NCBI GenBank assembly: GCA_020060545.1
Contig: JAGUZX010000134.1
Coordinates: forward strand, 45,025-109,024
Reading direction: 5' to 3'
Source: Desulfovibrio sp.
GTDB taxonomy: Bacteria; Bacillota; Dethiobacteria; DTU022
DNA: 64,000 bases
The notes below the pieces were generated by a model. It made no database searches. It saw only the letters and a list, made by a program, of their open reading frames with translations, and was not told the DNA's origin. This document shows, piece after piece, positions 27,983 to 47,710 of this stretch (the stretch's first letter is position 1; each line of letters starts with the position of its first letter). A program made the translations under genes and the position numbers.

Positions 27983-28025
27983 AATAACTTAATAAACGGT
28001 GCCTGGCACCATTTATTAAGTTATT
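27983..28025. repeat. GGTGCC-type REP palindrome with an AT-rich arm variant
   Basis: A 43-nt almost perfect palindrome: AATAACTTAATAAA, a core GGTGCCTGGCACC, and TTTATTAAGTTATT. It keeps the core of the RAYT2 family but has different arms. The stop codon of the CoA-transferase gene (28016-28018) lies inside it. Confidence 0.85.
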
Positions 28026-29209
28026 ATGCCATTCATTCGGAGGGAATCGATTTCCGGGCTGGTGTAGCCCAGCGACTGCAATATTTCGGCGGTGTGTTCG
28101 CCGAGGCGGGGAGGCGGCAGGCGCACCGCGCCGCTGGCACCGGAGAAAAGCAGCGGAAAACCGGGCTGCTTGGCGGACTCGGCCCCTTCCCCGGCCGCGT
28201 CGATCCAGAAGCGGCGCGCCAGGCTGACCGGGTGCTCAGCGGCTTCCGGCAGCTCCAGGACCGGTTCGCAGCAGGCGTCAACGGAGGCGAAAATTTGGGT
28301 CCACTCCGACCTGGTCTTGCTTTTAAACAGTGCTCCCACCGCTTCGATCAGCTCTTCCCGCCCCGTCTGGTCGAACTGCAGCGTCACCCACTCCGGCTTT
28401 GCAACGGCCACGCAAAAGTTCTGCCAGAAGGCCGGTTCCAAGGCGCCGAGGCTCATGTGCCCGCCGTCGGCGGTTTCGTAAAGGTTGTAGCAGGCGAAAG
28501 CCCCGGTAAGGTGCCCCCGGTTGCGCCTGGGCAGGGCTTCGCCGCCGGAGCGGTGGGCGGCGGCATAGGACAAAAACGGCAGCAGCCCCTGGGTCATGGA
28601 TACATCCACGTGCGCCCCCCTCCCGTTTTGCGCCCGGGCAAAGAGGGCGAACATAATCCCGGCGAGCGCCATCAGCGACCCCCCCGCGATATCGGCGATC
28701 TGCACCGCCGGCATCACCGGACCCTCCCCGGGAGCGGCGCTCAAGTCCAGCAGCCCGGCCACGGCGGCATAATTGATGTCGTGGCCGGCCCGCTCCCGGT
28801 ACGGACCGTCCTGTCCGTAGCCGGAGATGGAGGCGTAAACGAGCCCGGGATTAAGCCTGGCCGCCTCGCCGTAACCGAGGCCCAGCCGCTCCATCACCCC
28901 CGGCCGGAACCCTTCCACCAGGACGTCGCTCCGGGCGGCCAAAGCTTTGAGGATCTCCCTGCCGGCCGGTTCTTTTAAGTTCAGGGCGACGCTCTTCTTA
29001 TTGCGGTTCCACTGCCGGAAAAAGGCGCCGCTCCCGTCGATGATCTGCCCCGCCGCCCGGGTGGGATCCCCCAAAACGGGGTCTTCCACTTTGATCACCT
29101 CGGCCCCGTAATCGCCCATGATCATGGTACAAAGGGGCCCCGGCAGCAGCCTGGTCAGGTCCACCACCTTGAGCCCCTTCAAGATTGCGCCGCCGGTCTC
29201 CCGGCTCAT
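28016..29209 (-). CDS. Family III CoA transferase (CaiB/BaiF)
   Basis: It transfers CoA between carboxylic acids. It has 397 residues. The N-terminus LKGLKVVDLTRLLPGPLCTM and the following DYGAEVIKVEDPVLGDPTR carry the family's catalytic Asp region; FFRQWNRNKKSVALNLKEP and LVEGFRPGVMERLGLGY are typical. Its start overlaps the flavoprotein stop (ATGA), so it belongs to the C4-acid module. Possible substrates are succinate, malate, fumarate or a monocarboxylic acid activated for oxidation; sequence alone does not decide. Confidence 0.88.
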   Translation of the reverse strand: MSRETGGAILKGLKVVDLTRLLPGPLCTMIMGDYGAEVIKVEDPVLGDPTRAAGQIIDGSGAFFRQWNRNKKSVALNLKEPAGREILKALAARSDVLVEGFRPGVMERLGLGYGEAARLNPGLVYASISGYGQDGPYRERAGHDINYAAVAGLLDLSAAPGEGPVMPAVQIADIAGGSLMALAGIMFALFARAQNGRGAHVDVSMTQGLLPFLSYAAAHRSGGEALPRRNRGHLTGAFACYNLYETADGGHMSLGALEPAFWQNFCVAVAKPEWVTLQFDQTGREELIEAVGALFKSKTRSEWTQIFASVDACCEPVLELPEAAEHPVSLARRFWIDAAGEGAESAKQPGFPLLFSGASGAVRLPPPRLGEHTAEILQSLGYTSPEIDSLRMNGIIT

Positions 29210-30804
29210 CGGTGTGTATACCGCGGCAGCAGGATAGGCGCCACCCTGCCGCCGGCGGATCCGGTGCTTTCGAGTTCTTTCTCATAGTTCCAGACATGTT
29301 CCAGGCTGAAACCGTCTGGCCGGACTTCCCCGCTCCGGGCGGCGGCGTGACGCCCGGCGCGCCGCCCGAAGACGACGATATCAAGCAGCGAGTTGCCCAT
29401 GAGGCGGTTGCGGCCGTGGATCCCGCCGGCCGTTTCGCCGGCCACGTAGAGGTTCTCCACGGTGCTGCGCCCGTGCTCGTCGATTAATAGTCCGCCGTTC
29501 TGGTAATGAAGTGTGGGGTAGATCAGCATCGGCTCCTTGCGGATATCCACCCCGAACCGGGCAAACTGCCGCAGCATCGCCGGCAGCTGCCTTTCGATCG
29601 TCCCCTCGCCGTGGGTCAGCTCGATCAGGGGCGAATCAAGCCAGACGGCGGTGCTGCCGGTCGGGAGGGGCACGCCCAGGCCCCGTTCCTTGCACTCGCG
29701 GATGATCGCGGAGGACTCCACATCGCGGGTCTCCAGGTGATAGACGAACTGTGCGCCGTTGATATTGAGGGGGGTCCCCCCCAGGCCCCTGGTTTTCTCC
29801 GTGACCAGCAGCCCCAGCAGCTGCGGCGGATAGGCGCCGCCCGTGGGGTGATACTGGATCGAATCGGCAAAGATGGTTTTGGCCCCGGCGCGGTAGCCGA
29901 GCACCAGGCCGTCGCCGGTGGCGCCGTAGTGGTTGCTGGTGGGAAACCCCTGGTAGTGCAGCCGCCCCGATCCCCCGGTGGCGATAATTACCGTCTTCGC
30001 CCGGGCGATGAGGTACTCTTCCGTTTCCAGGTTGAACAGGACCGCCCCGGCGGCCCTGCCGCTTGAGTCCAGGAGCAGCTCCACCGCCGGGCAGAATTCG
30101 ACGACCTTAATCCCGCGGTTATAAACTTCGTCCCTGAGGGTGCGCATGATTTCGGCCCCGGTGTAGTCGCGGGCCGCGTGCATCCGCTTGCGGGAAGTCC
30201 CCCCGCCGTGGATGGTGTTCATGGTCCCGTCTTCTTTTTTGTCGAACATGGCCCCCAGGCTTTCGAGCCATTCAATGACCAGCGGGGCGTCCATGACCAG
30301 AGCGCGGGCCAGCTCCGGGACGTTGTAGAACCCGCCGCCGCCGACCACGTCCAGGTAGTGGATACACGGCGTATCGTTCGGTTTATCCGCGGCCTGGATG
30401 CCGCCCTGGGCCATCATGGTGTTGGCGTCGCCGAAGCGAAGCTTGGTCGCCACCATCACCGAGACGCCGGCGGCACAGGCTTCCAGCGCCGCCGAGGCCC
30501 CGGCGCCGCCCCCGCCGATCACCAGCACGTCGACATCGTAAGCGCAACGGTTCAGATCAAGCGCCGCCCCGCGCAGGCGGCTGCCGGCCTCAAGGATATC
30601 GGCCATCTCCAGGGGTACGCGGCTCCCCTTGTCTACCCCTACTTGAAGCTGCCGGAAGCCGGCCTCGATAAAATCAGGGTGAAACCGCCGCAGCACCTCC
30701 TGGCGTTCCGCGGCGGTCATGCGGGGATAATGCACGCCGACCCGGGAGGGCCTGGTTTCCTCAACCTTCTTCATCAATTCCTGCAAGTGCGGCGTGTAAA
30801 CCAC
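29206..30804 (-). CDS. Fumarate reductase/succinate dehydrogenase-type flavoprotein, likely non-covalent FAD
   Basis: The FAD-binding catalytic subunit that interconverts succinate and fumarate. It has 532 residues with DVLVIGGGGAGASAALEACA, the active-site stretch SIQYHPTGGAYPPQLLG, TEKTRGLGG, the late HYQNGGLLIDEHG, and GETAGGIHGRNRLMGNSLLD. In membrane SdhA/FrdA the FAD is bound to the His of HTVAA(Q/E)GG. Here the stretch is ANTMMAQGG, so that His is absent and FAD is probably free, as in NadB. NadB itself is less likely because an iron-sulfur subunit gene is adjacent. It starts with GTG after GAGAGGAGG. Confidence 0.85.
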   Translation of the reverse strand: MVYTPHLQELMKKVEETRPSRVGVHYPRMTAAERQEVLRRFHPDFIEAGFRQLQVGVDKGSRVPLEMADILEAGSRLRGAALDLNRCAYDVDVLVIGGGGAGASAALEACAAGVSVMVATKLRFGDANTMMAQGGIQAADKPNDTPCIHYLDVVGGGGFYNVPELARALVMDAPLVIEWLESLGAMFDKKEDGTMNTIHGGGTSRKRMHAARDYTGAEIMRTLRDEVYNRGIKVVEFCPAVELLLDSSGRAAGAVLFNLETEEYLIARAKTVIIATGGSGRLHYQGFPTSNHYGATGDGLVLGYRAGAKTIFADSIQYHPTGGAYPPQLLGLLVTEKTRGLGGTPLNINGAQFVYHLETRDVESSAIIRECKERGLGVPLPTGSTAVWLDSPLIELTHGEGTIERQLPAMLRQFARFGVDIRKEPMLIYPTLHYQNGGLLIDEHGRSTVENLYVAGETAGGIHGRNRLMGNSLLDIVVFGRRAGRHAAARSGEVRPDGFSLEHVWNYEKELESTGSAGGRVAPILLPRYTHR

Positions 30805-30825
30805 AGCTTTTCCTCCTCTCGGCCT

Positions 30826-31506
30826 CTACTCAATGTCGCGGTTGTTGTAGAGCTCCTGCAGCCGCGTCTTGTCCGCATCGATTAACTGCTGCAGCTCGTG
30901 ATCAAATGCACCGGCTTCGATCGCCCGGACCCTTTCCTTCAGGAAGGCGTCCGGCGGCGCGAGGTAGCGGCTGTAAAGGCGCCGCGCGGTCAAGGCGGCG
31001 TTGTAATGGACGATGTGCGCCGGGCAGCGCGAGACGCAAAGGCCGCACATGACGCAGTCAAAGGAGAGATCCGCCGCTCTGGCGAAGTCGCCGCGCTGGA
31101 GATAGGCGATATACTGCATTACATCGATGTCCTGCGGGCAAACCTTGGTGCACGAACTGCACCCCAGGCAGCGGAATACTTCGGGATAGAGCCGGGCGAA
31201 GTCGGCCACCGAGGGACGGATCCGCTCCAGGTCGAAGAGCGCTTTGCGGCCCGGGAAGAACGGGATCTGGGCCAGGTACATCCCCGGCTCCACCTTGGTC
31301 TGGCAGGCGAGGCCCACTTTCAGCTCAAAATCGCCGGCGATGCGGTAGACGGTGGCGCAGGCGCCGCAGAAACCGGCCCGGCAGCCGCAGCCCCGCTTGA
31401 TCTGGTACCCGGCATACTCCAAGGCCTCGATGATGGTCAGCGTTTCGGGGACCGTGTACTGCTTGCCCATGACGTATAGATCGATCATCCGGATTGCGTC
31501 AGCCAT
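30826..31506 (-). CDS. Iron-sulfur subunit of the fumarate reductase/succinate dehydrogenase-type complex
   Basis: A 226-residue electron-transfer protein. The N-terminal ferredoxin fold carries a [2Fe-2S] motif (RGCGCRAGFCGAC). The C-terminal part has CLGCSSCTKVCP and CVMCGLCVSRCP, i.e. the spacing of two [4Fe-4S] clusters, unlike SdhB, which has one 4Fe and one 3Fe cluster. AGGAGG precedes the ATG. The flavoprotein gene follows by 21 nt. No membrane-anchor subunit is nearby, so the complex may be soluble or dock to another partner. Confidence 0.85.
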   Translation of the reverse strand: MADAIRMIDLYVMGKQYTVPETLTIIEALEYAGYQIKRGCGCRAGFCGACATVYRIAGDFELKVGLACQTKVEPGMYLAQIPFFPGRKALFDLERIRPSVADFARLYPEVFRCLGCSSCTKVCPQDIDVMQYIAYLQRGDFARAADLSFDCVMCGLCVSRCPAHIVHYNAALTARRLYSRYLAPPDAFLKERVRAIEAGAFDHELQQLIDADKTRLQELYNNRDIE

Positions 31507-31524: not shown

Positions 31525-32862
31525 TTACTCTACGGGCGGGGCCGGGATGAAGCCGTGTTCCATGGCCGCCCTGGTCTGCTCCTGGGCCCGGCGGATGGTT
31601 TCCTCCGCCTTCCGGTAGATCTCTTCCCGGCCAAGCTTCAGCCGCGCCACCCCTTCGGCGATCGCCTTAAGCGCGGTGGCGGTGGCCACCCGGGGGAACA
31701 CTGCCCACATATCCATGGTCGGCAGGATCTTCTCCGGGTTCATCCCGCCATCCGGCGCGCAGGCCGCCAGTTCTTCCGCCGCGGCGATGCACATGGCATC
31801 GGTAATGGTGGTCGCCTGGACATCCAGGACGCCGCGGAAGATGGCCGGGAAACCGAGGGAGTTATTGACCTGGTTGGGAAAGTCGGAACGCCCGGTGGAT
31901 ACGATTTTCGCTCCCGCCTCGATCGCCTCCCAGGGCCAGATTTCAGGAATCGGGTTGGCGCAGGCGAAAACGATGGCGTCTTTCCCCATGCCGGCCACCC
32001 ACTCTTTTTTGATCGTGTCGGGACCGGGCGTGGAAAGACCGATCGCCACATCGGCCCCTTTGAAGGCCTCCGCCGGGCCGCCGGTCAGCCCCTGCCGGTT
32101 GGTCGTGCGGCAGAGCTCCCACTTGACCGGGTTTTCCGTGGCCAGCTCGGTGCGCCCCCCGTGCAGGATCCCCTTGCTGTCGCACATGATCACCTTCCCC
32201 GGATCGGCGCCGGCGGCGATGAGCAGGCGGATCGTGCAGATATTCGCCGCTCCGGCGCCGAGCATCACGATTTTTGCTTCGCTCATCTTTTTCCCGACAA
32301 TTTTCAGCGCGTTGATCAGGCCGGCCAGGGTTACCAGCGCGGTCCCCTGCTGGTCGTCGTGCCAGATGGGAATATGGCATTCCTGGCGCAGCCGGTCGAG
32401 GACAGCGAAGCATTTCGGGCTCGCGATGTCCTCCAGGTTTACCCCGCCGAAACAGGGCTGCATCATTTTTACGAATTTGATCAGTTCATCGGCATCCTTG
32501 GTATCCACGCAGATCGGAAAGGCGTCCACCCCGCCGAGGTATTTAAACAGCAGCGCCTTGCCTTCCATCACGGGCATGCTCGCTTCAGGGCCGATGTCAC
32601 CCAGGCCGAGCACCCGGGTCCCGTCGGAGACGACCGCCACGAAGTTGCCTTTATTGGTGTACTTGTAGACGTCTTCTTTATTTTTGGCGATCGCTTTACA
32701 GGGTTCCGCCACCCCCGGGGTATACCAGATCGCAAAGTCCCCGATACCGCGCACGCAGCTTTTCAAATTGACTTCGATCTTTCCCCGGTAAAAGGGGTGC
32801 AGCCGCATCGCGTCCTGGGCCGGTTTCTTCGCCTTCGCCAGGAGCTCTTCTTTGGTCGTCAT
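31525..32862 (-). CDS. NAD(P)-dependent malic enzyme
   Basis: It decarboxylates malate to pyruvate. From the ATG at 32862 (GGGGAG upstream) it has 445 residues, the short bacterial form without a phosphotransacetylase domain. Motifs: IGDFAIWYTPGVAEPCKAIA with the catalytic Tyr, ALLFKYLGGVDAFPICVDTK with the catalytic Lys region, IPIWHDDQQGTALVTLAGL, and the cofactor loop IVMLGAGAANICTIRLL. It lies between fumarase and the fumarate reductase-like pair, joining fumarate/malate to pyruvate. Confidence 0.95.
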   Translation of the reverse strand: MTTKEELLAKAKKPAQDAMRLHPFYRGKIEVNLKSCVRGIGDFAIWYTPGVAEPCKAIAKNKEDVYKYTNKGNFVAVVSDGTRVLGLGDIGPEASMPVMEGKALLFKYLGGVDAFPICVDTKDADELIKFVKMMQPCFGGVNLEDIASPKCFAVLDRLRQECHIPIWHDDQQGTALVTLAGLINALKIVGKKMSEAKIVMLGAGAANICTIRLLIAAGADPGKVIMCDSKGILHGGRTELATENPVKWELCRTTNRQGLTGGPAEAFKGADVAIGLSTPGPDTIKKEWVAGMGKDAIVFACANPIPEIWPWEAIEAGAKIVSTGRSDFPNQVNNSLGFPAIFRGVLDVQATTITDAMCIAAAEELAACAPDGGMNPEKILPTMDMWAVFPRVATATALKAIAEGVARLKLGREEIYRKAEETIRRAQEQTRAAMEHGFIPAPPVE

Positions 32863-32975
32863 TCTTCTCCCCACTTTCCTGTTTTAAGTATAAACTTATC
32901 CCCATTGATCCCCTCTAATCATCGGCCACAACACGCGCGCCGGGTCAATTAACTTGATCGGCACCGGCCGCTGCC

Positions 32976-33000
32976 CTCACTTTCACTTCTCATCTCTCAC
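32976..33000. repeat. TGA-rich low-complexity tail at the fumB 3' end
   Basis: A CTCACTTTCACTTCTCAT tract followed by CTCTCAC. Read on the minus strand, its first TGA is the stop codon of the fumarase beta gene. Third member of the family at 989-1023 and 14064-14095. Confidence 0.6.
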
Positions 33001-33548
33001 CGCGCATACGCTTTTGCTCCTGTTACGTAGAGATCGTTGCCGTAGGCATCGTTAATGACAGTGGCCGGGAAGTCTTCCACCTCGAGGCGGTGGATCGCTT
33101 CGGCGCCCAGCTCGGGGTAAGCCACCACTTCACATTTCTTGACCCGCTTGGAGAGTAATGCCCCCGCGCCGCCGACAGCGGCCAGGTACAGGCCCTTGTA
33201 TTTTTGCAGCGCCTCGATTACGGCCGGTTTGCGGAAGCCCTTGCCGATACACCCCTTCATGCCCTGCTCCAGCAAACGCGGCGTGTAGGCGTCCATGCGC
33301 CCGCTGGTGGTCGGTCCGGCGGAGCCGATGGTCTGGCCGGGCCGGGCCGGAGTCGGCCCCACATAATAGATCAACTGCCCCTGCAGGTTTATGGGCAGCG
33401 GCTCGCCCCGATCCAGCAGCTCGACCAGCTTTTTATGGGCCGCGTCCCGCGCGGTATAGATCACGCCGCTGATCAGCACATTATCGCCGGCCTTGAGCGC
33501 CAAAACATCCGCGTCGCTCAACGGTGCCTTTAAACGCTTCACTTCCAC
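32997..33548 (-). CDS. Fumarate hydratase class I, beta subunit (C-terminal half)
   Basis: The swivelling C-terminal domain of the two-subunit iron-sulfur fumarase that hydrates fumarate to malate. It has 183 residues. YYVGPTPARPGQTIGSAGPT, TSGRMDAYTPRLLEQGMKG and CIGKGFRKPAVIEALQKYKG are typical. The start is a GTG at 33548 behind AAGGAGGG. It follows the alpha subunit by 33 nt. The related L(+)-tartrate dehydratase beta subunit cannot be fully excluded, but the malic enzyme next door favours fumarase. Confidence 0.92.
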   Translation of the reverse strand: MEVKRLKAPLSDADVLALKAGDNVLISGVIYTARDAAHKKLVELLDRGEPLPINLQGQLIYYVGPTPARPGQTIGSAGPTTSGRMDAYTPRLLEQGMKGCIGKGFRKPAVIEALQKYKGLYLAAVGGAGALLSKRVKKCEVVAYPELGAEAIHRLEVEDFPATVINDAYGNDLYVTGAKAYAR

Positions 33549-33581: not shown

Positions 33582-34427
33582 TTAAATCACTCTTTCCACG
33601 TGGCGGCAGGCATGACAGTTCAGGTTGACCGCCGCCGCCATGCTGGCGATATGGGAGGGAAAGGTCTCGATGTGCACCGCCAGGGCGGTGATCCGCCCGC
33701 CGAAACCCTGCGGGCCGATGCCCAGATCGTTGATCTTTGCCAGTACCTGTTGCTCCAAAGCGGCAAAGAAAGGATCCGGGTGAGGCTGCCCGAGCGGGCG
33801 GAAGAGCGCTTTTTTGGCCAGGACGGCGACCATGTCAAAAGTGCCCCCGATGCCCACACCCACCACGATCGGGGGGCAGGGATTGGGTCCCGCCTCCCGG
33901 ACATGGCTGACGACAAAATTAATCACCCCGTCCACCCCGTCGGAGGGGTTGAGCATCTTGACGGCGCTCATATTCTCACTGCCGCCGCCCTTGGGGGCGA
34001 AAGCGATCTTCACCTTGTCCCCGGCAACCAGGCGCAGGTGGATCACCGCGGGAGTATTGTCGCCGGTGTTCACTCTTTTCCGCAAAGGGTCGTCCACGAT
34101 CGATTTGCGCAGGAAACCTTCTTCGTAACCCCGGCGCACCCCTTCGTGAATAGCTTCCTCCAGGGTCCCCCCGGTGAGATGAACCTCCTGGCCCCACTCC
34201 ACAAAAAAAACGGCAAAACCCGTATCCTGGCAGATCGGAATTTGCTCGCCCCGGGCGATCGCCACGTTTTCGATCAGCTGGCGCAGGACTTCTTTCCCGG
34301 TCGGCGACTCTTCCCGTTCAACCGCCTGCTGAAGGGCCCGATAAACGTCTTCGCCCAGGTAGATGTTCGCTTCCCGGCACATTTGCGCTACCTGGGCGGA
34401 AATTTCAGCCCCTGCCAATTCCCGCAT
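33582..34427 (-). CDS. Fumarate hydratase class I, alpha subunit (N-terminal half)
   Basis: The [4Fe-4S]-binding catalytic domain of fumarase. From the ATG at 34427 (AGGAGGCGAGCG upstream) it has 281 residues. The cluster cysteines sit in IPICQDTGFAVFF, GPNPCPPIVVGVGIGGTFD and the late NLNCHACRH. FAPKGGGSENMSAVKML is the conserved substrate region. It leads the module fumarase alpha-beta, malic enzyme, iron-sulfur subunit, flavoprotein, CoA transferase. It is oxygen-sensitive by family. Confidence 0.92.
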   Translation of the reverse strand: MRELAGAEISAQVAQMCREANIYLGEDVYRALQQAVEREESPTGKEVLRQLIENVAIARGEQIPICQDTGFAVFFVEWGQEVHLTGGTLEEAIHEGVRRGYEEGFLRKSIVDDPLRKRVNTGDNTPAVIHLRLVAGDKVKIAFAPKGGGSENMSAVKMLNPSDGVDGVINFVVSHVREAGPNPCPPIVVGVGIGGTFDMVAVLAKKALFRPLGQPHPDPFFAALEQQVLAKINDLGIGPQGFGGRITALAVHIETFPSHIASMAAAVNLNCHACRHVERVI

Positions 34428-34578
34428 CACCGCTCGCCTCCTGTGCATTTTATTTATGGCATTTCTTCCTTTTGTTCATAAATTCCTGCACCGCCTTATA
34501 ATTTCTATGATCATTCTAAAATTTATGATCGCCCAGGGGGCGTTTCCCCATCCCGGCGCTGGAAAGGCATTCAAAATA

Positions 34579-34631: not shown

Positions 34632-35528
34632 TTAAAAAGGAGCCGCACCCTCGCCCTGCTGCAGCAGCCTTTCCCAATCGCGGTCCACGCTGTGCTGCAG
34701 CGCTTCCACCTGCCAGCGTTCGAGGCCGCTGAAGCGCCGTTGCAGGGCCAGGTATTCTTCGAGAGGAGCTTTTTGGGGCGGGCGGTAGGTCAGCTCAACC
34801 GTAATACCGTCCCTTATTTCATATAAAGGAAACAGGCAGCTTTCCACCGCCAGGCGGGACAAACGGATCGTTTCGTCGGACTCGGCGCCCCATCCCGGGG
34901 GGCAGGGGATCAACAGGTGGAAAAAGCGGAATCCCTTGATGCCGCGGGCCTTTACAAATTTCTGCGCCAGGTCGTCCGGAAAGGCGACCGTGGCCGTGGC
35001 CGCATACGGGATCCCGTGCGCGGCCATGATCCGCATGATCTCCTTTTTCTGCCTCTCTTTGGTGCGGGGCAGCGGGAGGGTATTGGTATGACAGCCATAC
35101 GGCGTGGCGGAGCTGGTCTGCATGCCCGTGTTCATATAAGCCTCGTTGTCGTAGCAGACAAAGATAAAATCTTCGTTGCGCTGCGCCGCGCCGGAAAGCG
35201 CCTGCAGCCCGATATCAAACGTGCCTCCGTCACCGGCCAGGACCACGACGGTGGTATCACGGTTTCCTTTCTGTTCGAGACCCCGCTTTACACCGCTCCC
35301 CACCGACGCCGCGCTGGGGAAAGGGCAGTGCAGGATCGGGCACTTCAAGGTGGTCAGGGGCGGCCCCCCGGCGATGATACTCCAGCAGCAAGCGGTGATC
35401 ACCATAACGATGTCCGGCCCGAGGGCCCGGCTAAAATACCGCACCGCGAGAGCCGCGCCGCAACCCGGGCAGGCCGAGTGACCGGAGTAAAGTATCTCCG
35501 CGCCGGAATCGGTTTCGCGCAAATTCAT
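34632..35528 (-). CDS. 2-oxoacid:ferredoxin oxidoreductase, beta subunit (thiamine pyrophosphate binding)
   Basis: The TPP-binding subunit that oxidatively decarboxylates a 2-oxoacid to acyl-CoA with reduction of ferredoxin. From the ATG at 35528, which overlaps the alpha stop, it has 298 residues. YSGHSACPGCGAALAVRYF carries two cluster cysteines. AGDGGTFDIGLQALSG is the TPP motif, and CYDNEAYMNTGMQTSSATP is typical of POR/VOR beta subunits. Context (branched-chain amino acid dehydrogenase) favours 2-oxoisovalerate; pyruvate is also possible. Confidence 0.9.
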   Translation of the reverse strand: MNLRETDSGAEILYSGHSACPGCGAALAVRYFSRALGPDIVMVITACCWSIIAGGPPLTTLKCPILHCPFPSAASVGSGVKRGLEQKGNRDTTVVVLAGDGGTFDIGLQALSGAAQRNEDFIFVCYDNEAYMNTGMQTSSATPYGCHTNTLPLPRTKERQKKEIMRIMAAHGIPYAATATVAFPDDLAQKFVKARGIKGFRFFHLLIPCPPGWGAESDETIRLSRLAVESCLFPLYEIRDGITVELTYRPPQKAPLEEYLALQRRFSGLERWQVEALQHSVDRDWERLLQQGEGAAPF

Positions 35529-36676
35529 GCGAGATCCACCCCCCATACTTCTCGATCTGGCCCTCCCCCGCCGGTGAAAAGGCTCCCGTCCAGGATGCGC
35601 TTCAGCATCCACGGGGTTAAGTCGACTCCCCCGGCAAGGATCAGGTTCTGCACGGGCGGCGCGGCGGCGGCGCCGTAAAGGGCCGCCTTTACTTCCTGGG
35701 CCAGGATGCCGCCCAGCCCGGGCGAGCAGTTGCGGTCAACCACGATCACCGTTTCGGCCCCCGACGCTTCGACCCGGGTCCTCAGCTCCCGGGCCGGAAA
35801 GGGGCGCACCGCTTTCAGGCGCAGCAGCCCGGTCCCGTCCAGGGCAGGTAAGACGCTCTTAATCGTTTCGGCGCAGCTTCCTGCCGTGACTAATAGCGTC
35901 TTGGCCCCTTCGCAAGCAACCCCCTCCACGGCAGGGTAACTGCGGCCAAAAAGGGCCGCAAAGCGGTCGTTTATCTCCCGCAGCGTTTCCCAGACCCGTT
36001 CCATCGCCCGGTGGCGCGACAGCACCAGCCGCGACTGCGCCTCGGCGCCGATCAGCCCGTGAAGGTTGGCCGGGCGGCCGGGATCCACCTGGGCCGCAAA
36101 ACAGGACGGCCCCAGAAAGCGGGCCACCGTATCACGGGGCGGTATATCGACAGCCTCGTAGGTGTGGGAAACGTAAAAACCGTCAAAAACAACCATGCAA
36201 GGCAGAAGCACGCTCTCCGCCAGGGCAAAAGCCTGCAGGATTGTATCAAATACCTCCTGGGCATTTGCGCAGTAGAGCTGGATCCAGCCGGTATCGCGCT
36301 GCGAAAGGCTGTCGATCTGATCCGGTTCCAGGCACCAGGGGGCCCCCATGGCCCGGTTCACGTTGGCCAGCACTATCGGGTGGCGGGCCCCGGCGCACCA
36401 GTGGATCATTTCGTGCATGTAGGCGAGGCCATGGGAAGATGTGGCGGTAAAGGTACGGGCTCCGGCGGACGCCGCCCCGCTGCAGTAGGCCAGGGAGGCA
36501 TATTCCGATTCCGCGTTGACGTATTCGCCACCCAGTTCACCCCGGGCCCAGTACTCGGCCAGGGTTTCCACGATCGCCGTCTGGGGGGTGATCGGGTAAG
36601 CGACCACCAGGTCGACGCCGGCCCGTTGCACCGCCGTGGCCGCAGCCTGGCTCCCGGTAATCATTTCAACCGGCAT
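35525..36676 (-). CDS. 2-oxoacid:ferredoxin oxidoreductase, alpha subunit
   Basis: The pyrimidine-binding and core subunit, 383 residues. EMITGSQAAATAVQRAGVDL and VVAYPITPQTAIVETLAEYW are the conserved N-terminal active-site region. FTATSSHGLAYMHEMIHWCA and the C-terminal ETVIVVDRNCSPGLGGILAQ follow. GGAGG lies before the ATG. The gene overlaps the upstream oxidoreductase by 11 nt and the beta gene by 4 nt, so the operon is tightly coupled. Confidence 0.9.
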   Translation of the reverse strand: MPVEMITGSQAAATAVQRAGVDLVVAYPITPQTAIVETLAEYWARGELGGEYVNAESEYASLAYCSGAASAGARTFTATSSHGLAYMHEMIHWCAGARHPIVLANVNRAMGAPWCLEPDQIDSLSQRDTGWIQLYCANAQEVFDTILQAFALAESVLLPCMVVFDGFYVSHTYEAVDIPPRDTVARFLGPSCFAAQVDPGRPANLHGLIGAEAQSRLVLSRHRAMERVWETLREINDRFAALFGRSYPAVEGVACEGAKTLLVTAGSCAETIKSVLPALDGTGLLRLKAVRPFPARELRTRVEASGAETVIVVDRNCSPGLGGILAQEVKAALYGAAAAPPVQNLILAGGVDLTPWMLKRILDGSLFTGGGGPDREVWGVDLA

Positions 36677-38228
36677 AAACCGCGCCTCCTTCCATCACCA
36701 GCACCCGTGCCGGGCATTCCCGCGCGCAGATGCCGCAGCCCTTGCAGTAATCAAGGTTGAAAGAGTACTGTTCATCATCCCACAGCACCGCCACATCGGG
36801 GCAAAACAGGGCGCAGGCGCCGCAGGAATTGCATGTGCCGCACCCCAGGCAGCGGCCGGCCTCTTCCACCGGTTCCCCCTGGCGCCGGTTCAGTTGTTTA
36901 GCGGGCAGCGACGCCAGGTGCAGATCGGCAAAGGTAACCAGCCGCGGCGCGGCGGCCGGGGCTGCACTGTCAATCCCGGCGCTCCCGTTTAAGCGTGCGG
37001 TGATGGCCGCCGCCGCGATCCGGCCTGCCCGGATCGCTTCCGTGACGGTGGCCGGCCCGCTCACCAGATCTCCCCCGGCAAAGACAGGATAGTGCCGCTC
37101 CAAGCGGCCGAATACGCTGAAATCCGGTTCCTGCCCGACGGCAAAGATCAGGCTCCCGCACGGAATTTCAAGAGGAGCCCCGCTTAAAACGTTTACTTTT
37201 CCGGCGGCGGTGGCAGTCCGATCGAGGAGCACCGCCTCCGGCTTGCCGCACTCGCCCTGAACGGCCCGGGGGACGACGTTGAAGAGAAACCGGACCCCTT
37301 CCGCCTCCGCCGCCTTAACTTCGTCACGCGAGGCGGGCATCTCCTCCCGGCTGCGGCGGTAAGCCACACTGACCCTCCGGACCCCTTCCTGCCGCAGCGC
37401 CATCCTGGCGGCGTCGACCGCGGCGTTGCCGCCCCCCACCACAACCACCGGTCCGGCAAGGTCGACCCGCTGCCCCCGGTTGACGCGGCTCAGGAATTCC
37501 AGGGCGCTCCATACCCCGGGCAGTTCCGCTCCGGGTAACACCGGGGTACGGGCCTGCGCGGCGCCCGTGGCCAGGAACACCGCATCGTTCTCTTCCAGCA
37601 GCTGCTCCAACCCGACGTCTAAGCCCAGGGCGCACCCGGTCACAAACTCAATCCCTTCGTCCGCCAGGATCTGCAGTTCACGGGAGAGGATCGCCCGGGG
37701 CAGCCGGTAATCCGGTATGCCCAGGGCCAAAAGCCCGCCGGCTGCGGCGGCCCGCTCGATGACGGTGACGCGGAATCCTTCCCGGTTAAGATAATAGGCG
37801 CAGCTCATCCCGGCCGGCCCGGACCCGGCGACAGCTACATGGCCGCGCTGCGGCCGGGGCGCGGGCGGCTTCCGGTAATGTTCCAAACGCCAAAGCCCGA
37901 CGGCCCTTTCCACGGCCTGGATCTCGATGCCCTCATCCAGGTATTGACGGTTGCAGCTTTCCATGCAGGGATGGAAACAGACATAGCCGGTGATCGCCGG
38001 GAAGGGGTTCTTCCGCCGTGTAATCCGCCATGCTTCGTCCCAGCGCCCGCGCTTCACCGCTTCCAGCCACTCCGGGATGTCGCTTTCCAGGAAACAGGCT
38101 TCAAAACAAGGCGATCGCCCTTTCACCCTGGCCGGGGCCAGAAACCGCCAGTCTCCGGTTTTATTGGCCAGGGACGGTTTTTCACCGCGCGCGTATTCTA
38201 CTTCCGCCTGCCCTACATTAGCGGACAA
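36666..38228 (-). CDS. FAD-dependent oxidoreductase (GltD/NfnB-like) fused to a 2[4Fe-4S] PorD-type ferredoxin domain
   Basis: A 520-residue fusion. The N-terminal cysteine-rich helical domain (SPCFEACFLESDIPEWLEAV; YVCFHPCMESCNRQYLD) and two Rossmann folds (VAVAGSGPAGMSCAYYLNRE and VVVVGGGNAAVDAARMA) match the glutamate synthase small subunit/NfnB family. The last 90 residues are a dicluster ferredoxin (CLGCGTCNSCGACALFCP, then CKGCGICARECP) like the delta subunit of pyruvate or 2-oxoisovalerate oxidoreductase. It lies between gamma and alpha, where a separate delta gene would be. A TTG start at 38228 is supported by AAGGAGGTG 7 nt upstream. Confidence 0.88.
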   Translation of the reverse strand: MSANVGQAEVEYARGEKPSLANKTGDWRFLAPARVKGRSPCFEACFLESDIPEWLEAVKRGRWDEAWRITRRKNPFPAITGYVCFHPCMESCNRQYLDEGIEIQAVERAVGLWRLEHYRKPPAPRPQRGHVAVAGSGPAGMSCAYYLNREGFRVTVIERAAAAGGLLALGIPDYRLPRAILSRELQILADEGIEFVTGCALGLDVGLEQLLEENDAVFLATGAAQARTPVLPGAELPGVWSALEFLSRVNRGQRVDLAGPVVVVGGGNAAVDAARMALRQEGVRRVSVAYRRSREEMPASRDEVKAAEAEGVRFLFNVVPRAVQGECGKPEAVLLDRTATAAGKVNVLSGAPLEIPCGSLIFAVGQEPDFSVFGRLERHYPVFAGGDLVSGPATVTEAIRAGRIAAAAITARLNGSAGIDSAAPAAAPRLVTFADLHLASLPAKQLNRRQGEPVEEAGRCLGCGTCNSCGACALFCPDVAVLWDDEQYSFNLDYCKGCGICARECPARVLVMEGGAVYAG

Positions 38229-38802
38229 CCCCCGACACCTCCTTTACCTTCCGGTAACCTTCAGCTACGGCTTTACTGTTCTGATCCCTGCGGGTGGAGA
38301 TCCTCTTTTCCACCGCCGCCAGGACGCTGTCGAGAGAGGCCAGCCCCGTGATCCGGGCCAGGGCGCCGACCATTACCGTATTGACGACCGGGAAAGCGCC
38401 GATGGTAAGGTTATGCTGGTCGGCTATCGCCGAAGCATCTACCCGGAAAATCCGGAAAGCCGTTGCGGAATCAAAATCGTTTAAGTAAGAGAGCTCTCGA
38501 TCCGGGGCGTTGACCAAAAGCAGCCCCGCTGTTTTCAGCCCGGCCAGGACCGTATCGCCGCTGATCGTGACATCCAGCGCCGCCACGCAGTCCGGTTCGT
38601 AGATCCGGCAGCGCGGCATCAAGGCGGCGCTGCTGACACGCACAAATGCCGTTACCGGGGCGCCGCGGCGTTCGGCCCCGAAGAGCGAAAAAGCCCGGGC
38701 GTAAAAACCTTCGCGAAAGACGGCTTCGGCAAAGACAGCCGCCGCTACGACGATCCCCTGTCCGCCCCGGCCGTGGAGCCGGAACTCTGTGATCTTCTCC
38801 AT
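38218..38802 (-). CDS. 2-oxoacid:ferredoxin oxidoreductase, gamma subunit
   Basis: A 194-residue subunit. The N-terminus EFRLHGRGGQGIVVAAAVFA is the family signature, with SLFGAERRGAPVTAFVRVS next. The ATG at 38802 follows AAGGAGG. It is first of the four oxidoreductase genes and overlaps the next by 11 nt. The gene order gamma, GltD-delta fusion, alpha, beta agrees with a four-domain POR/VOR-type complex. Confidence 0.92.
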   Translation of the reverse strand: MEKITEFRLHGRGGQGIVVAAAVFAEAVFREGFYARAFSLFGAERRGAPVTAFVRVSSAALMPRCRIYEPDCVAALDVTISGDTVLAGLKTAGLLLVNAPDRELSYLNDFDSATAFRIFRVDASAIADQHNLTIGAFPVVNTVMVGALARITGLASLDSVLAAVEKRISTRRDQNSKAVAEGYRKVKEVSGVVR

Positions 38803-38868
38803 ATCAGCGCCTCCTTGCAATTTTCTGCAATTTGCATGGAAATGCGTGCAGATATATGCATGCCTAAA

Positions 38869-39930
38869 TCAAACCCTGGCGGATTGCGTCAGGGCGCCGT
38901 CATGACGGATCCGCTCTTCGGCCATTAAATCGGCCGCCGCTGCAGGGGTGATCCGCTCTTCCCTGGCCCGTTTGAACAGCGCCTGCAGCCTGCCCTCGAT
39001 CCGGGCCACAGCCTGCCGGATCCCCGCCGCATCCGTAACGCCCCGCCGGATCGAATCGACAAAAACCAATCCGCCGGCGTTGATGACAAAGTCCGGCGCG
39101 TAAAGGATGCCCAGCTGCTGCAGCGCCGCGGCACAGTCTTCCGTCAGAAGGACATTATTGGCCGCCCCTGCCACGATCCGGCACTTCAGCAGCGGGATTG
39201 TTTGAGGGTTGATTACCGCACCGCCTCCGCAGGGGGCAAAAATGTCGCACTCCTGCGCGTAAATCTGATCCGGGGAAACCGCCCGGGAGCCCCAGAGTTC
39301 GACCACGGTTTTTACCCTGGCCGGATCCAGGTCGGTGACAATCAATTTGGCCCCTTCGTTGGAGAGATACTGGCAGAGGCATCCGCCAACCCCCCCCAAA
39401 CCCTGCACCGCAACGGTCATGCCTTTCAGGGAAGGGCTGCCGTACACCTCGGCCGCGCAGGCCTTGATCCCCTGCAGCACCCCGTAAGCGGTAAATGGTG
39501 AAGGGCTGCCGGAAACGGAACCGCCGATCGCGTATGCGGTTTCCAGACGCATCCAGTCAAGGTCCTTTTCATCAATGCCCATATCCTCGCCGGTAAAAAA
39601 ACGGCCCTGCAGCTTTTGCACGCAGCGGCCGTAGGCCCTGAACAGCCCTTCGCTCTTGTCGCGGCGAGGGTCGCCCATGATCAACCCTTTGCCTCCCCCT
39701 AAAGAAAGTTCCGCCGCCGCCGCTTTATAGGTCATCCCCCGGGCCAGCCGCATGACATCCTCGATGGCTGCTTCTTCAGAAGGGTATGACCACATGCGGG
39801 TGCCTCCCAGGGCCGGCCCCAGTGCCGTGCTGTGAATGGCGATGGCCGCCTTCAGGCCTGTCCCGGGGTCGTAAAACAGCAGCAGCTCCTCAAACCGGCG
39901 GCTCTCCATCTTCAAGAAGTAACCGGTCAT
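38869..39930 (-). CDS. Glu/Leu/Phe/Val dehydrogenase, probably leucine/valine type
   Basis: An NAD-dependent amino acid dehydrogenase giving a 2-oxoacid and ammonia. From the ATG at 39930 (AGGAGG upstream) it has 353 residues, near the leucine dehydrogenase length of about 364 and well short of glutamate dehydrogenases. MTYKAAAAELSLGGGKGLIM with the catalytic Lys, GALGGTRMWSYPSEEAAIE, and the NAD loop VAVQGLGGVGGCLCQYL are clear. A sigma-54 promoter sits 50 nt upstream. It leads the ferredoxin oxidoreductase operon, which suggests valine, isoleucine or leucine as substrate. Phenylalanine is an alternative. Confidence 0.88.
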   Translation of the reverse strand: MTGYFLKMESRRFEELLLFYDPGTGLKAAIAIHSTALGPALGGTRMWSYPSEEAAIEDVMRLARGMTYKAAAAELSLGGGKGLIMGDPRRDKSEGLFRAYGRCVQKLQGRFFTGEDMGIDEKDLDWMRLETAYAIGGSVSGSPSPFTAYGVLQGIKACAAEVYGSPSLKGMTVAVQGLGGVGGCLCQYLSNEGAKLIVTDLDPARVKTVVELWGSRAVSPDQIYAQECDIFAPCGGGAVINPQTIPLLKCRIVAGAANNVLLTEDCAAALQQLGILYAPDFVINAGGLVFVDSIRRGVTDAAGIRQAVARIEGRLQALFKRAREERITPAAAADLMAEERIRHDGALTQSARV

Positions 39931-39980
39931 GTTTATACTCTTCCTCCTCTGGTCAAACTTTTTCTCTAGTTTCTTTAATT

Positions 39981-39996
39981 TGCAATTGGCGTACCA
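39981..39996 (-). promoter_or_regulatory. Sigma-54 (RpoN/SigL) -24/-12 promoter for the amino acid dehydrogenase-oxidoreductase operon
   Basis: On the minus strand the sequence reads TGGTACG, CCAA, TTGCA. This matches TGGYACR-N4-TTGCW at every fixed position, with the GG and GC doublets at the required spacing. Transcription would start about 40 nt before the dehydrogenase start. An enhancer-binding activator gene lies immediately upstream on the same strand. Confidence 0.85.
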
Positions 39997-40035
39997 CAAG
40001 CGAGCCCCAGACCGTTTGACACGGGAATTTTCGGA

Positions 40036-40071
40036 AAATAAAAACGCCGCCCGCCCATTGAGGGGGCGGCG
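40036..40071 (-). terminator. Intrinsic terminator after the sigma-54 activator gene
   Basis: On the minus strand CGCCGCCC, an 11-nt loop and GGGCGGCG form an 8-bp GC stem followed by TTTTTATTTT. It lies about 40 nt after the activator stop. It separates that gene from the sigma-54-driven operon. Confidence 0.85.
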
Positions 40072-40108
40072 CGGTCTTGAACGTGATCGTTGAAAAGCGG
40101 GGTGCCGG

Positions 40109-41788
40109 TCAGTTTTCCCGGGCGGAGCCGGCGGGAGGATAAATCCGGTAGCGTTCAATCTTGTTATAGAGGCCGCGGATCGATATCTTCAGCCGGCGGG
40201 CGGCTTCGCTTTTATTCCAACCGGCTTCGGCAAGCGCTTGCCGGATCATCTCCCGTTCCCAGTTCCGGTGCATCTCCGCCAGCGATCCGCCCCCATATAC
40301 CGCGCCGGGCTCCTTTTTTTCAGGCACCGTGGCGAAAGGAATCATCAGGTGCTGCTCGTCAATCCTCACCTCATCGCGCCCCAGGTTAATCAGCGCCCGC
40401 GAGATTACATTCTGCAGTTCGCGCATATTGCCGGGCCAATCGTATTCCTGCAGCCGCCGGTAGACCCGGGGTGATATTTCCACGGCCAAGCGCCCGTATT
40501 CCTGGCCGTAACGGTTAACATAATAGTCGGCCAGCAGCGGGATATCCTCCTTAATCTCCCTTAAAGGGGGCATCAAGATCGGAAACACATTCAGGCGGTA
40601 GTAAAGGTCCTTGCGGAAAGAGCCTTTCTGCACCATTTCCTCCAGGTCGGCATTGGTGGCGGCGATAACCCTGACATCGATGGCGCGGGTGCGGGATTCT
40701 CCGACGCGGATAATCTCCCCTTCCTGGAGTACCCGCAGCAGCCTGGCCTGGGCTTCCTGGCTCATGGCCCCGATTTCGTCCAGGAAGAGGGTGCCGCCGT
40801 GGGCTTCTTCGAAGTAGCCCTTTCGCCCCCCCTTCCGCGCCCCGGTAAAAGCCCCGTCGGCGTAGCCGAAGAGCTCGCTTTCCAGGAGGGTGTCCGTAAG
40901 CGAAGCGCAGTTGACCCGGATAAACGGCCGCTCGGCCCTCTCGCTGGCATGATGGATGGCGTGGGCGAACAGCTCTTTCCCCGTGCCGCACTCGCCCCGC
41001 AGCAGCACGCTGGCCGGGGTTCTGGCCGCCTGACCGGCCCGTTCCACCGTTTCCAGCAGCCTCTTGCTGCGCCCGATAATATCTTCAAATGTATAGCGGG
41101 ACTCCAGGCGGCGCACCAGGCGGCGCGTCCGCTCCAGCTCCTCCATCAGGCGCCTGATCTCGGAAATATCGTGGATTACCCCGACACTGCCCTTCATTCT
41201 TCCGTTGATCTGCAAAGGGGCGCAGCTCACGACGACGTCACGGCGGTAAGGACCGACCTTCATGCGGACCCCTTTGATCGGCTTGCCGGTCTTCAGGACC
41301 TGGAAATGCACGCTTTCGCCTTCGGCGATATCCACCGTAGCCGGCTGGCGCAGCACCTGCTCCGCGGTCATCCCGGTCAGGCGGGTATAGGCCCGGTTGA
41401 TCATCAGCCCCATCCCTTTTTCATCCACCACGGAAACGGCGTCGGAGAGGGAATCGATAATCGCCTGCAGCAACAGCTGCCCTTCCGCACCGGTTGGCAC
41501 GTCGGAACACAGCTCGCTCAAGACGATCCAGTATCCGCCGGACGAAATTTCAATTTTAGAAACGGTAAATTTTTGCCCGCCGCAATCAAAAAGAGCCGGA
41601 AAAGAGCCCTTCTGCAGCAGCCCGAGCAGCTGATCCCTTCCCGGGGGAAAAAGTTTTTCATCGCAAAACCGGGCGGCCTGCCGGTTGTAATATTGAACGC
41701 GATGATCGCTATCGCAAAGAACCAGCCCTTCCTCCAGGCTGTTCAGGAGATCGAAGCAGGCGGCGCCGGGCGGGAACTGAGAATTCAT
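40109..41788 (-). CDS. Sigma-54-dependent transcriptional activator with PAS domains
   Basis: An enhancer-binding protein of 559 residues from the ATG at 41788 (GAGGAGGGATGAG upstream). The N-terminal 230 residues hold one or two PAS folds ([36 protein letters not shown] ends the second). The AAA+ domain has Walker [17 protein letters not shown] with Cys in place of the usual Ser, and the sigma-54 loop [13 protein letters not shown]. The C-terminal Fis-type helix-turn-helix is [20 protein letters not shown]. It probably activates the adjacent promoter, like BkdR on bkd in Bacillus. The PAS ligand is unknown. Confidence 0.9.
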
Positions 41789-44808: not shown

Positions 44809-45075
44809 TCAATTATCTATGCCGGCCCATTGCCGGTATTGCATGGCTTTCTCCTGACCGATCAAAGATTCCAGGAGCAGGGCGGTAAAGTGGAAGACCC
44901 GCGTGCCAAACCCGGTAATGATATGGCCGTCCCGGACCGCAGGTCCCGGCGTCCGGATAGCCCCGGCAAACAAAGGGTGATTTTGCACTTCGGAGCAAAA
45001 GTATTTGCCATCCAGTATCCCCGCTGCGCCCTCAAAACTCTCATGCAAATTCGCCTCCAAGCGCTTACCTCTCAA
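44809..45075 (-). pseudogene. Probable C-terminal remnant of a DJ-1/PfpI-family gene
   Basis: An 88-residue frame starting at a TTG that overlaps the mutase stop codon. The central part (GAAGILDGKYFCSE) and TPGPAVRDGHIITGFGTRVF followed by a C-terminal helix resemble the last third of DJ-1/PfpI proteins. The nucleophile-elbow Cys region that comes earlier in the family is missing. It lies between the large and small mutase genes. It may be a decayed insertion or a short gene of unknown role; the family match is tentative. Confidence 0.4.
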
Positions 45076-46745
45076 AACAGCGGCTGCTCCCGGTACTCGC
45101 CGAAGACCTCTTTCAGGGCGGCGACGATCTCCCCCTCGGTGGCATAGGCCTTGACCGCCTCCAGGATATACGGGATCACATTTTCAGTTCCGGCGGCGGC
45201 CGACTTCAGCCGCTGCAGGCAATTGCCGACGGACACCCCGTCGCGCCGGCTTTTTAGCTCCCGCAGCCGCTCGACCTGTTTCCGCTCCACCGCCGGGTCG
45301 ATTCGAAGCAGCTCAATGCTCAGCGGTTCACCGGAGGCAAAACGGTTCACCCCGACCGCCACCCGCTCCCCTTTCTCCACCGCCTGCTGGTAGGCGTAGG
45401 CGGCGTCGGCGATCTCCTGCTGGAAGAAACCGCGCTCGATGGCGGCCAGCACCCCGCCCAGCGCCTCGATGCGCCGGAAATACTCTTCCGCCGCCACCTC
45501 CATTTCGTTGGTCAGCGCTTCGACAAAATAAGACCCGGCCAGCGGGTCAATCGTATTTGCGGCACCGCTTTCAAAAGCCAGGATCTGCTGGGTGCGCAGG
45601 GCGATCTTCGCCGCTTTCTCCGTGGGCAGCGCCAGCACCTCGTCCATGGAGTTGGTGTGCAGTGACTGCGTCCCGCCCAGGACCGCCGCCAGCGCTTCCA
45701 GGGTGGTGCGGACAATGTTGTTTTCGGGCTCCTGCGCCGTCAGCGAACAGCCCGCCGTCTGGGTGTGGAAGCGCAGCATCCAGGAGCGGGGGTCTTTCGC
45801 CCCGTAGCGCTCCTTCATCCGCCTGGCCCAGATCCGGCGGGCGGCGCGGTACTTGCAGATCTCCTCGAAAAAATCGAGGTGGGCGTTGAAAAAGAAAGAA
45901 AGCCGCGGCGCGAAATCGTCCACCTCCAGGCCGGCCTTGATCCCCGCCTCGACATAGGCGAAGCCGTCGGCAAGGGTGAAGGCGAGCTCCTGCACCGCCG
46001 TCGAGCCGGCTTCCCGGATGTGGTAGCCGCTGATGCTGACCGTATTCCAGCGGGGGACGAAGCGGGAGGCGAAGGCGAAGATATCGGTAATCAGCCTGAG
46101 CGACGGCTCCGGCGGGAAGATCCACGATTTCTGGGCGATGTATTCCTTCAGGATGTCGTTCTGAATCGTGCCGCCGACCCGGTCCAGCGGCACCCCCTGC
46201 TTCTCGGCGTTGGCCAGGTACATGCACCAGATCACGGCCGCCGGGCCGTTGATTGTCATCGAAGTGGTAATCCGGCCCACGGGGATCCCGGCGAAGAGCA
46301 CTTCCATATCCTCCAGCGAATCGACGGCCACGCCGCAGCGTCCCACCTCCCCCAGGGAGCGGCAATGATCGGAATCGTAGCCCATGATCGTGGGCATATC
46401 GAAGGCCACGCTTAGCCCGGTCTGCCCCTGCTCCAAAAGGTAGCGGTAGCGCCGGTTGGAGTCGAAGGCGTCGCCGAAGCCGGAGAACTGGCGCATCGTC
46501 CAGAGCCGCCCCCGGTACATGTCGCCCTGCACGCCCCTGGTGTAGGGGTATTGCCCGGGAAAACCGAGATCCCGCAGGTAATCAAGGCCCGCGACATCCA
46601 GCGGCGTGCAAAGGTCCTTGACCGGCGCGCCGGAAACGGTTAAAAAAGACCTTCCGGCTTCTACCGTCTCTCCCTGCTCTTTCCGCCAGCGGTTTTCCGC
46701 CTCCTTGATCTTTTTAAGCGAGTCCGGCTTTTCGTATGCGGCCAT
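45072..46745 (-). CDS. icmA: Isobutyryl-CoA mutase large (catalytic) subunit
   Basis: An AdoCbl-dependent isomerase of isobutyryl-CoA and n-butyryl-CoA. It has 557 residues from the ATG at 46745, with AAGGAGG upstream. The barrel is typical of acyl-CoA mutases ([63 protein letters not shown]). Two substrate-determining positions differ from methylmalonyl-CoA mutase. Tyr89 of MutB is Phe87 (in RQFSGFG) and Arg207 is Gln205 (in KEYIAQKSW), with identical 118-residue spacing. Phe/Gln is the isobutyryl-CoA mutase pair; the missing Arg means no carboxylate grip. It follows the meaB gene by 20 nt. Confidence 0.88.
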
Positions 46746-46765
46746 TTTCTTTGCCTCCTTGGAGT

Positions 46766-47710
46766 TTACGGGACGGGAAATTCGATCTGCGCGAGCAGCT
46801 CCCGGGCCGCGCTGTAAGGATCCCGCCGGCGCAGGGCGATCTCCTCCACCAGGCTGCCTAGGGTCATCCGTACTTTGATTTTTTCCCAAACCATCGTTTT
46901 AACCAGGTGCTCCACCTGCTCCGTCAACTCGCGGCTGATCCTCTCTTTGCGGATTTCCAGCAGGCGACCGCTTTTTTCCAGGTACTCCCGGTGCTCCTGC
47001 ACCGACTGCCAGAGCGCCCCGATCCCTTCACCGCGGGTTGAGACGGCAGGAACAACCGGCGGGCGCCAGTCACAGCAACTTTTCAAATCGAGCATCGCGC
47101 TCACTTCGGCGGCGGCCCTTTCCGTACCGGGAAGGTCGGCCTTGTTAATCACGAAAATATCGGCAATCTCCATGATCCCCGCTTTCAGCGTCTGGACGCT
47201 GTCCCCGCCCGCCGGGGTCAGCACGACCACGGTAGTGTCGGCCGTTTTCACGATATCCACTTCCGACTGGCCCACCCCCACCGTTTCCACCAAAATCAGA
47301 TCTTTTCCGAAAGCGTCCAGGAGCTGGATGGTCTCACGGGTGGCCCGGGAAAGCCCGCCCAGGCTGCCGCGCGTCCCCATGCTGCGGATGAACACGCCCC
47401 GGTCCAGGGCATGATCCTGCATCCGGATCCGGTCACCCAGGATCGCTCCCCCGGTAAAAGGGCTGTTGGGGTCGACGGCGACTACCCCCACCGTCAGGCC
47501 CGCCCCGCGCATCTCCTGCAGCAACCGGTCCACCAGGGAGCTCTTGCCCGACCCCGGGGCGCCGGTGATCCCGATCACGTACGCTTTTCCCGTATGCGGG
47601 TAGAGGCTCTGCAGGATCTCATTTTTGAGGGGGTCGCCGTTTTCCACCAGCGTAATCAGGCGGGCCAGGGCGCGGCGGTTGCCTCCCAGTAACTCCGTCA
47701 CAAGCTGCAT
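46766..47710 (-). CDS. meaB: MeaB-family GTPase chaperone of the acyl-CoA mutase
   Basis: A G3E-family P-loop GTPase that guards AdoCbl loading and protects B12 mutases from inactivation. It has 314 residues from the ATG at 47710. Motifs: [20 protein letters not shown] (Walker A), [51 protein letters not shown], and the NKAD guanine motif. An earlier in-frame ATG at 47731 would take the N-terminus into a REP unit and is less likely. It lies directly upstream of the large subunit, the order expected for a dedicated chaperone. Confidence 0.95.

Follow-up and report, generated by a model that had tools for sequence, protein, structure and literature searches.

Pseudoclostridium thermosuccinogenes carries a 'succinate operon' (CDQ83_RS03365-03315) for fumarase, Flx-Hdr, fumarate reductase and a putative succinate transporter (Koendjbiharie and van Kranenburg 2019 preprint, in PMC7282089). 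A bifurcating NADH/ferredoxin-linked fumarate reductase has already been proposed for this species, in which the operon is up about 4-fold under CO2 limitation (PMC7282089). In Pelotomaculum thermopropionicum, SDH2 (PTH_1490-1492) is cytoplasmic, lacks SdhC and was renamed FrdAB by its authors; NADH:fumarate activity was 35.7 mU/mg in the soluble fraction versus 5.7 in membranes (PMC10308238). The FrdAB family is thus already described in these two species. Here we analyze an frdBA gene pair in a 64,000-nucleotide stretch (the window) of contig JAGUZX010000134.1, from a Dethiobacteria genome deposited as Desulfovibrio sp. (GCA_020060545.1; 2.5 Mb, 95.5% complete, 135 contigs). With moderate confidence, we propose that FrdAB is a soluble fumarate reductase that receives electrons from NADH by way of an Flx-Hdr complex encoded in trans, with bifurcation to ferredoxin.

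FrdA consists of an N-terminal extension of about 88 amino acids, a flavin adenine dinucleotide (FAD)/catalytic domain (residues 89-490, with an FAD_binding_2 match across residues 92-473) and a short tail. In an alignment with E. coli FrdA, SdhA and NadB, residues H319, E336, R360, H433 and R467 match E. coli FrdA H233, E246, R288, H356 and R391 (Met = 1). These five fumarate reductase catalytic residues are kept in the window FrdA and 24 relatives. The original prediction had pointed to ANTMMAQGG in place of the His-containing FAD-attachment motif, and the alignment bears this out: the sequence occupies residues 127-135, and Asn128 stands in the column of the covalent-FAD His45 of E. coli FrdA (Met = 1), as does Asn in 24/24 relatives. 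FAD is therefore predicted to be held non-covalently. Residue 490 aligns with residue 414 of 602 in E. coli FrdA, and only about 40 residues follow it; the SdhA-type C-terminal domain is therefore missing. Residues 1-88 (30804-30541) have no Pfam match and contain invariant Y3, R18, R21, R28 and H42-P43-D44. This extension possibly takes the place of the missing domain in contacting FrdB. Among solved folds, the one nearest to an AlphaFold2 model of FrdA (mean predicted local distance difference test score 77) is E. coli FrdA (1kf6).

FrdB contains Fer2 and Fer4 domains. Its [2Fe-2S] motif (Cx4CxxC...C) lies at C42/C47/C50/C68 and is followed by two complete CxxCxxCxxxCP [4Fe-4S] motifs, at C113-C123 and C151-C161. 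The cysteines of these motifs are invariant in 25 sequences, in agreement with the cluster content first read from the locus and described there as unlike SdhB/FrdB. Both later motifs have four Cys, and no [3Fe-4S]-type motif is present in FrdB, whereas complex II carries one at this place. Separately, two Chloroflexota FrdBs (L079:9308-9991 and L116:1876-2559) have RGVGCR where others have RGCGCR, an indication that the first Cys in the latter motif does not serve as a cluster ligand.

A quickly built FrdA tree, with support values from the Shimodaira-Hasegawa-like approximate likelihood ratio test only, places the window protein in a clade with 100% support that excludes E. coli SdhA and FrdA, the canonical SdhAs of relatives, and NadB. 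The E. coli proteins and two relatives' SdhAs form a clade of their own. The comparison with SdhA, FrdA and NadB that had been suggested as a check thus separates FrdA from all three, and neither clustering with membrane succinate dehydrogenases nor an sdhC elsewhere was found. No anchor gene lies near frdBA, as first noted, and Sdh_cyt (PF01127) has no match in the window's genome assembly (95.5% complete, in 135 contigs), versus matches in 7/14 control genomes; FrdC/FrdD-type anchors fall in different Pfam families, for which no separate search was made. Canonical SdhA with RSHSVAAQGG is a separate gene in some relatives (L200, L201), and no second SdhA was found in the window's genome. The only other strong full-length FAD_binding_2 match in that genome is NadB, encoded beside nadA and nadC. 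We rejected an L-aspartate oxidase identity for FrdA on the basis of this separate NadB and of a low score against the NCBIfam nadB model (256.8 bits; cut-off 452.75). We also dropped the claim of a quinone-free cell: the futalosine family PF02621 is unmatched, yet the genome has three UbiA-family genes.

The FrdA family is widespread and is not rare in the phylum. A scan of named genomes identified at least 590 FrdA-encoding stretches, the best 80 of which all share at least 59% identity with the window protein, and of 300 genomes sampled evenly across the phylum, 30 match at E <= 1e-120. Close named relatives among the matches listed are metagenome-assembled genomes labelled Syntrophomonadaceae, Dethiobacter and Bacillota, which points to a Bacillota host, probably close to Dethiobacteria. 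The FrdA clade also includes proteins from Clostridiaceae, Lachnospiraceae, Oscillospiraceae, Peptococcaceae, Chloroflexota, Synergistota and Fibrobacterota.

Other FrdBA copies occur in different surroundings (gene names assigned by eye). Copies that are 68-69% identical (L044:763-10407 and L046:9653-19365) adjoin UbiD-like, two CaiB-type CoA transferase and SucCD-like genes, with a UbiX-like gene also present in L044. Paralogues of about 50% identity (L049:5030-9596 and L052:371-4894) lie beside MmgE/PrpD-like and CitE-like genes, and in L049 also a CaiB-like gene. These associations suggest that the paralogues use another unsaturated dicarboxylate.

Gene neighborhoods connect the family to Flx-Hdr. 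Among the best 80 named loci, in which hdr and flx genes were tallied by hand, all seven hdrBCA-flxDCBA genes lie beside frd in 40 and at least one does in 59; several loci without them are short contigs or belong to the window's own family. Same-order genomes (L036-L039) encode fumA-fumB-malE-frdB-frdA, then hdrB-hdrC-hdrA-flxD-flxC-flxB-(flxA). Gut Clostridia have the order hdrB-hdrC-hdrA-flxD-flxC-flxB-flxA-frdB-frdA, and an Asp-Al_Ex permease often comes next. Desulfofundulus thermobenzoicus (L081, Peptococcaceae), with an FrdA of the window clade, has hdrC-hdrB-frdB-frdA. In the window's genome, contig C89 opens inside hdrA and continues with flxD-flxC-flxB-flxA. The C89 HdrA is 80% identical to the HdrA of relative G002, and in relatives G002 and G007 hdrB and hdrC directly precede the matching hdrA. 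An HdrA tree places the C89 protein inside the clade of Frd-adjacent HdrAs (support 100/100). A second HdrA (C24), which in relatives is preceded by a CCG protein and EtfBA, falls outside that clade.

Sequence comparison shows the fold and the catalytic residues, the lack of the covalent His, the cluster motifs, the clade and the gene linkage. In the mechanism that we propose, malic enzyme and fumarase would convert pyruvate and CO2 to fumarate, which would be reduced to succinate at the non-covalently held FAD of cytosolic FrdA. The neighboring CoA transferase would then form succinyl-CoA, able to enter the methylmalonyl-CoA route. Electrons would pass from NADH through FlxA and FlxBCD to HdrA and its bifurcating FAD. 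From there, one branch would continue through HdrC/HdrB and the three FrdB clusters to FrdA and fumarate, and the other would end at ferredoxin (Fd), for a net reaction of 2 NADH + Fdox + fumarate -> 2 NAD+ + Fdred + succinate. We infer the fumarate-reducing direction from the missing covalent His and from the energetics. E. coli FrdA His44 variants retain fumarate reduction and lose succinate oxidation. More tentatively, and with clearly less confidence, we suggest that HdrBC might pass HdrA electrons straight to FrdB, with fumarate replacing heterodisulfide as the high-potential acceptor, so that two unlinked loci would together provide a quinone-free, methylmalonyl-CoA-tied way of saving energy through ferredoxin as succinate or propionate is formed.

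Several points weigh against NADH-driven, bifurcating fumarate reduction. No Flx-Hdr genes adjoin frdBA within the window; in this lineage they are encoded in trans. A CCG search did not find the matching HdrB in the genome assembly, probably because hdrBC would lie in the contig gap before the C89 hdrA, given the gene order in G002 and G007. Among 59 relatives, this HdrB type (E < 1e-60) does co-occur with Frd, in 25/39 Frd-bearing versus 2/20 Frd-lacking genomes (Fisher p = 8e-5), which favors the link; the p value, however, takes no account of shared ancestry, and the 14 Frd-bearing relatives without a match, some of them fragmented assemblies, count against it. A fold search with FrdB returned only ferredoxin-domain matches and no convincing match to the whole chain. 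Biochemical proof of bifurcation is given neither in PMC10308238 nor in PMC7282089. Finally, nearby methylmalonyl-CoA and branched-chain genes fit the oxidative direction too.

The genome and its relatives encode further Flx-Hdr-like sets. A second set (hdrA-flxD-flxC-flxB-flxA; contigs C14/L168 and C24/L166) lacks HdrBC. It is intact in L171 (G007:C22:32000-44000), where a Fer4/CCG protein of about 400 amino acids and EtfB-EtfA precede it, and may form an Etf-linked bifurcating complex for acyl-CoA dehydrogenases. A third HdrA (C76:13389-16915, L167) contains an in-frame TGA, and so does the FlpD gene next to it; an HdrB-like gene lies nearby. The in-frame TGA of FlpD recurs in many relatives, and both proteins look like selenocysteine-containing proteins.

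The frd genes are part of a minus-strand run, fumA-fumB-malE-frdB-frdA-CoA transferase, whose order is kept in the window's family (Table 1). Both frdA and frdB are complete open reading frames. Domain matches uphold the original placement of the pair between malic enzyme and a CoA transferase, and add a two-subunit fumarase to the run. The malE/frdB and frdB/frdA gaps are 18 and 21 bases, and the frdA stop shares 4 bases (ATGA) with the start of the CoA transferase gene; this spacing points to one transcription unit, of which we propose fumA as the first gene. A hairpin that separates fumA from the 2-oxoacid oxidoreductase genes upstream is a probable operon boundary, in a region with 22 terminator-like hairpins versus 15.8 expected by chance. 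The CoA transferase reaches no NCBIfam equivalog cut-off; its linkage to frdA is kept in most of the window's family, and it would interconvert succinate and succinyl-CoA.

Table 1. Features of the frd locus and its surroundings, in window positions.
Feature	Position	Strand	Basis
frdA, flavoprotein subunit, 532 aa	30804-29206	-	Open reading frame; GTG start; AGGAGG just upstream
frdB, iron-sulfur subunit, 226 aa	31506-30826	-	Open reading frame; ATG start; GGAGG upstream
Family III (CaiB-type) CoA transferase	28016..29209	-	CoA_transf_3, 370 bits
Malic enzyme (malE)	31525..32874	-	malic and Malic_M domains; adjoins frdB in relatives
Fumarase class I beta subunit (fumB)	32997..33548	-	Fumerase_C; NF005310 above cut-off
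Fumarase class I alpha subunit (fumA)	33582..34448	-	Fumerase; NF004885 above cut-off
Terminator-like hairpin, 14 pairs, 11 G-C, short T tail	34608-34578	-	Pattern match only
Four-gene 2-oxoacid oxidoreductase with GltD-like NAD(P)H subunit	34632..38820	-	POR_N, POR, TPP_enzyme_C, Pyr_redox_2
Methylmalonyl-CoA mutase large subunit family, connecting succinyl-CoA with propionyl-CoA	45072..46889	-	PF01642, 737 bits; TIGR00641 above cut-off

Upstream, a Leu/Trp-type amino acid dehydrogenase and the GltD-bearing 2-oxoacid oxidoreductase (38218-41851) adjoin a PAS/sigma-54 activator whose closest model is PrdR, below its cut-off. A sigma-54 promoter search gave 3 near matches versus 1.9 expected by chance, and a -24/-12-like site at 39996-39981 (-) does not exceed chance expectation. 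We dropped the idea of a single operon leading from glutamate through 2-oxoglutarate to pyruvate: the Por genes fit VOR/POR/PadGI-type models over 2-oxoglutarate synthase, and the Leu/Trp-type dehydrogenase model and the terminator-like hairpin between the units also count against it.

A soluble succinate dehydrogenase is an unlikely alternative, and the best surviving one. Branched-chain amino acids would be degraded through propionyl-CoA and succinyl-CoA to succinate, Flx-Hdr would confurcate (oxidizing ferredoxin and making NADH), and fumarase and malic enzyme would lead on to pyruvate. An amino acid dehydrogenase and a 2-oxoacid oxidoreductase share a 23-kb stretch with the frd genes, as do a methylmalonyl-CoA mutase (which may instead be an isobutyryl-CoA mutase), MeaB, CobA and acyl-CoA dehydrogenases, these last four within about 20 kb of frdBA. 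We retain the oxidative alternative because these four would fit either propionate formation via succinate or oxidation of branched-chain amino acids. It also agrees with the lack of a PF00285-type citrate synthase match in the window's genome (13/14 control genomes matched), such that 2-oxoglutarate would need Re-citrate synthase or a reductive C4 branch. FrdA, however, lacks the covalent-FAD His, electron flow from NADH to fumarate is strongly downhill and the reverse uphill, and the hairpin separates the amino-acid genes from the frd run. Moreover, P. thermopropionicum uses a membrane succinate dehydrogenase for succinate oxidation, while its NADH:fumarate activity is mainly soluble (PMC10308238).

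More doubtful still is that FrdAB works independently of Flx-Hdr here, with a simple donor such as reduced ferredoxin, or NADPH through the GltD-like flavoprotein. The ferredoxin-like clusters of FrdB would suit such a donor, Flx-Hdr is not adjacent in the window's family, HdrB is unmatched in some Frd-bearing relatives, and most of that family has the GltD-like gene immediately upstream. But the full hdrBCA-flxDCBA set is kept in the family, its HdrA is orthologous to Frd-adjacent HdrAs, and the GltD-like protein goes with the 2-oxoacid oxidoreductase unit and has no counterpart next to frd in the order's other families. Of the function first suggested for the pair, the class stands: a two-subunit, soluble fumarate reductase that is not a complex II; ferredoxin is a likelier product than donor, NADH through Flx-Hdr being the likelier source, and succinate oxidation is the less likely direction. 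A different unsaturated dicarboxylate, e.g. mesaconate or itaconate, is a very improbable substrate: the paralogue of about 50% identity found in several relatives with MmgE/PrpD-like, CitE-like and CaiB-like genes indicates that the family may have diversified, but the window copy lies between fumarase/malic enzyme and CoA transferase throughout its family, and every catalytic residue matches fumarate reductase.

If Flx-Hdr does feed FrdAB, reducing fumarate would save energy, by reducing ferredoxin, in anaerobes that have no quinone-linked fumarate reductase. With the family encoded by about one in ten of the phylum's sampled genomes and by many gut Clostridia, this has implications for how succinate forms in guts and digesters. 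Since a single order contains both joined and split layouts, the FrdAB/Flx-Hdr partnership lends itself to direct testing.

Compared with known systems, the window pair shares with complex II (SdhABCD/FrdABCD) the FrdA fold and catalytic residues; we rejected membership because the window pair lacks the covalent His, a [3Fe-4S]-type motif and an anchor and falls in a separate clade, and the C-terminal domain is missing as well. Thiol:fumarate reductase TfrAB of methanogens, likewise soluble and without the covalent His, is the nearest NCBIfam model for both FrdA (339.8 bits; cut-off 718) and FrdB (48.6 bits; cut-off 385). We rejected membership on these unmet cut-offs and keep TfrAB as the nearest named model; FrdB (226 aa) has no counterpart to the long C-terminal half of the TfrB model, which spans 488 positions, and the TfrAB substrates coenzyme M (CoM-SH) and coenzyme B (CoB-SH) are not expected in the window's bacterium. 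P. thermopropionicum FrdAB resembles the window pair in being cytoplasmic and without SdhC, a likeness drawn from the published description rather than from sequence, and differs in its adjoining partner, described as an FrhB-domain protein. The P. thermosuccinogenes operon combines a two-gene fumarate reductase with fumarase and has its seven Flx-Hdr genes directly before frdBA and a permease after, an order also seen in the window pair's relatives. The window differs in its trans-encoded Flx-Hdr, its malic enzyme and CoA transferase flanks and the lack of a permease; the two are likened by gene order, not protein sequence. The window FrdA shares its clade with FrdAs encoded next to hdrBCA-flxDCBA, in a tree that does not include the P. 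thermosuccinogenes sequence. What the window pair adds to these systems is a split layout in which Flx-Hdr is encoded in trans, a fumAB-malE-frdBA-CoA transferase unit, the argument from HdrA orthology and an explicit FrdAB architecture, with an N-terminal extension, no C-terminal domain and two [4Fe-4S] motifs.

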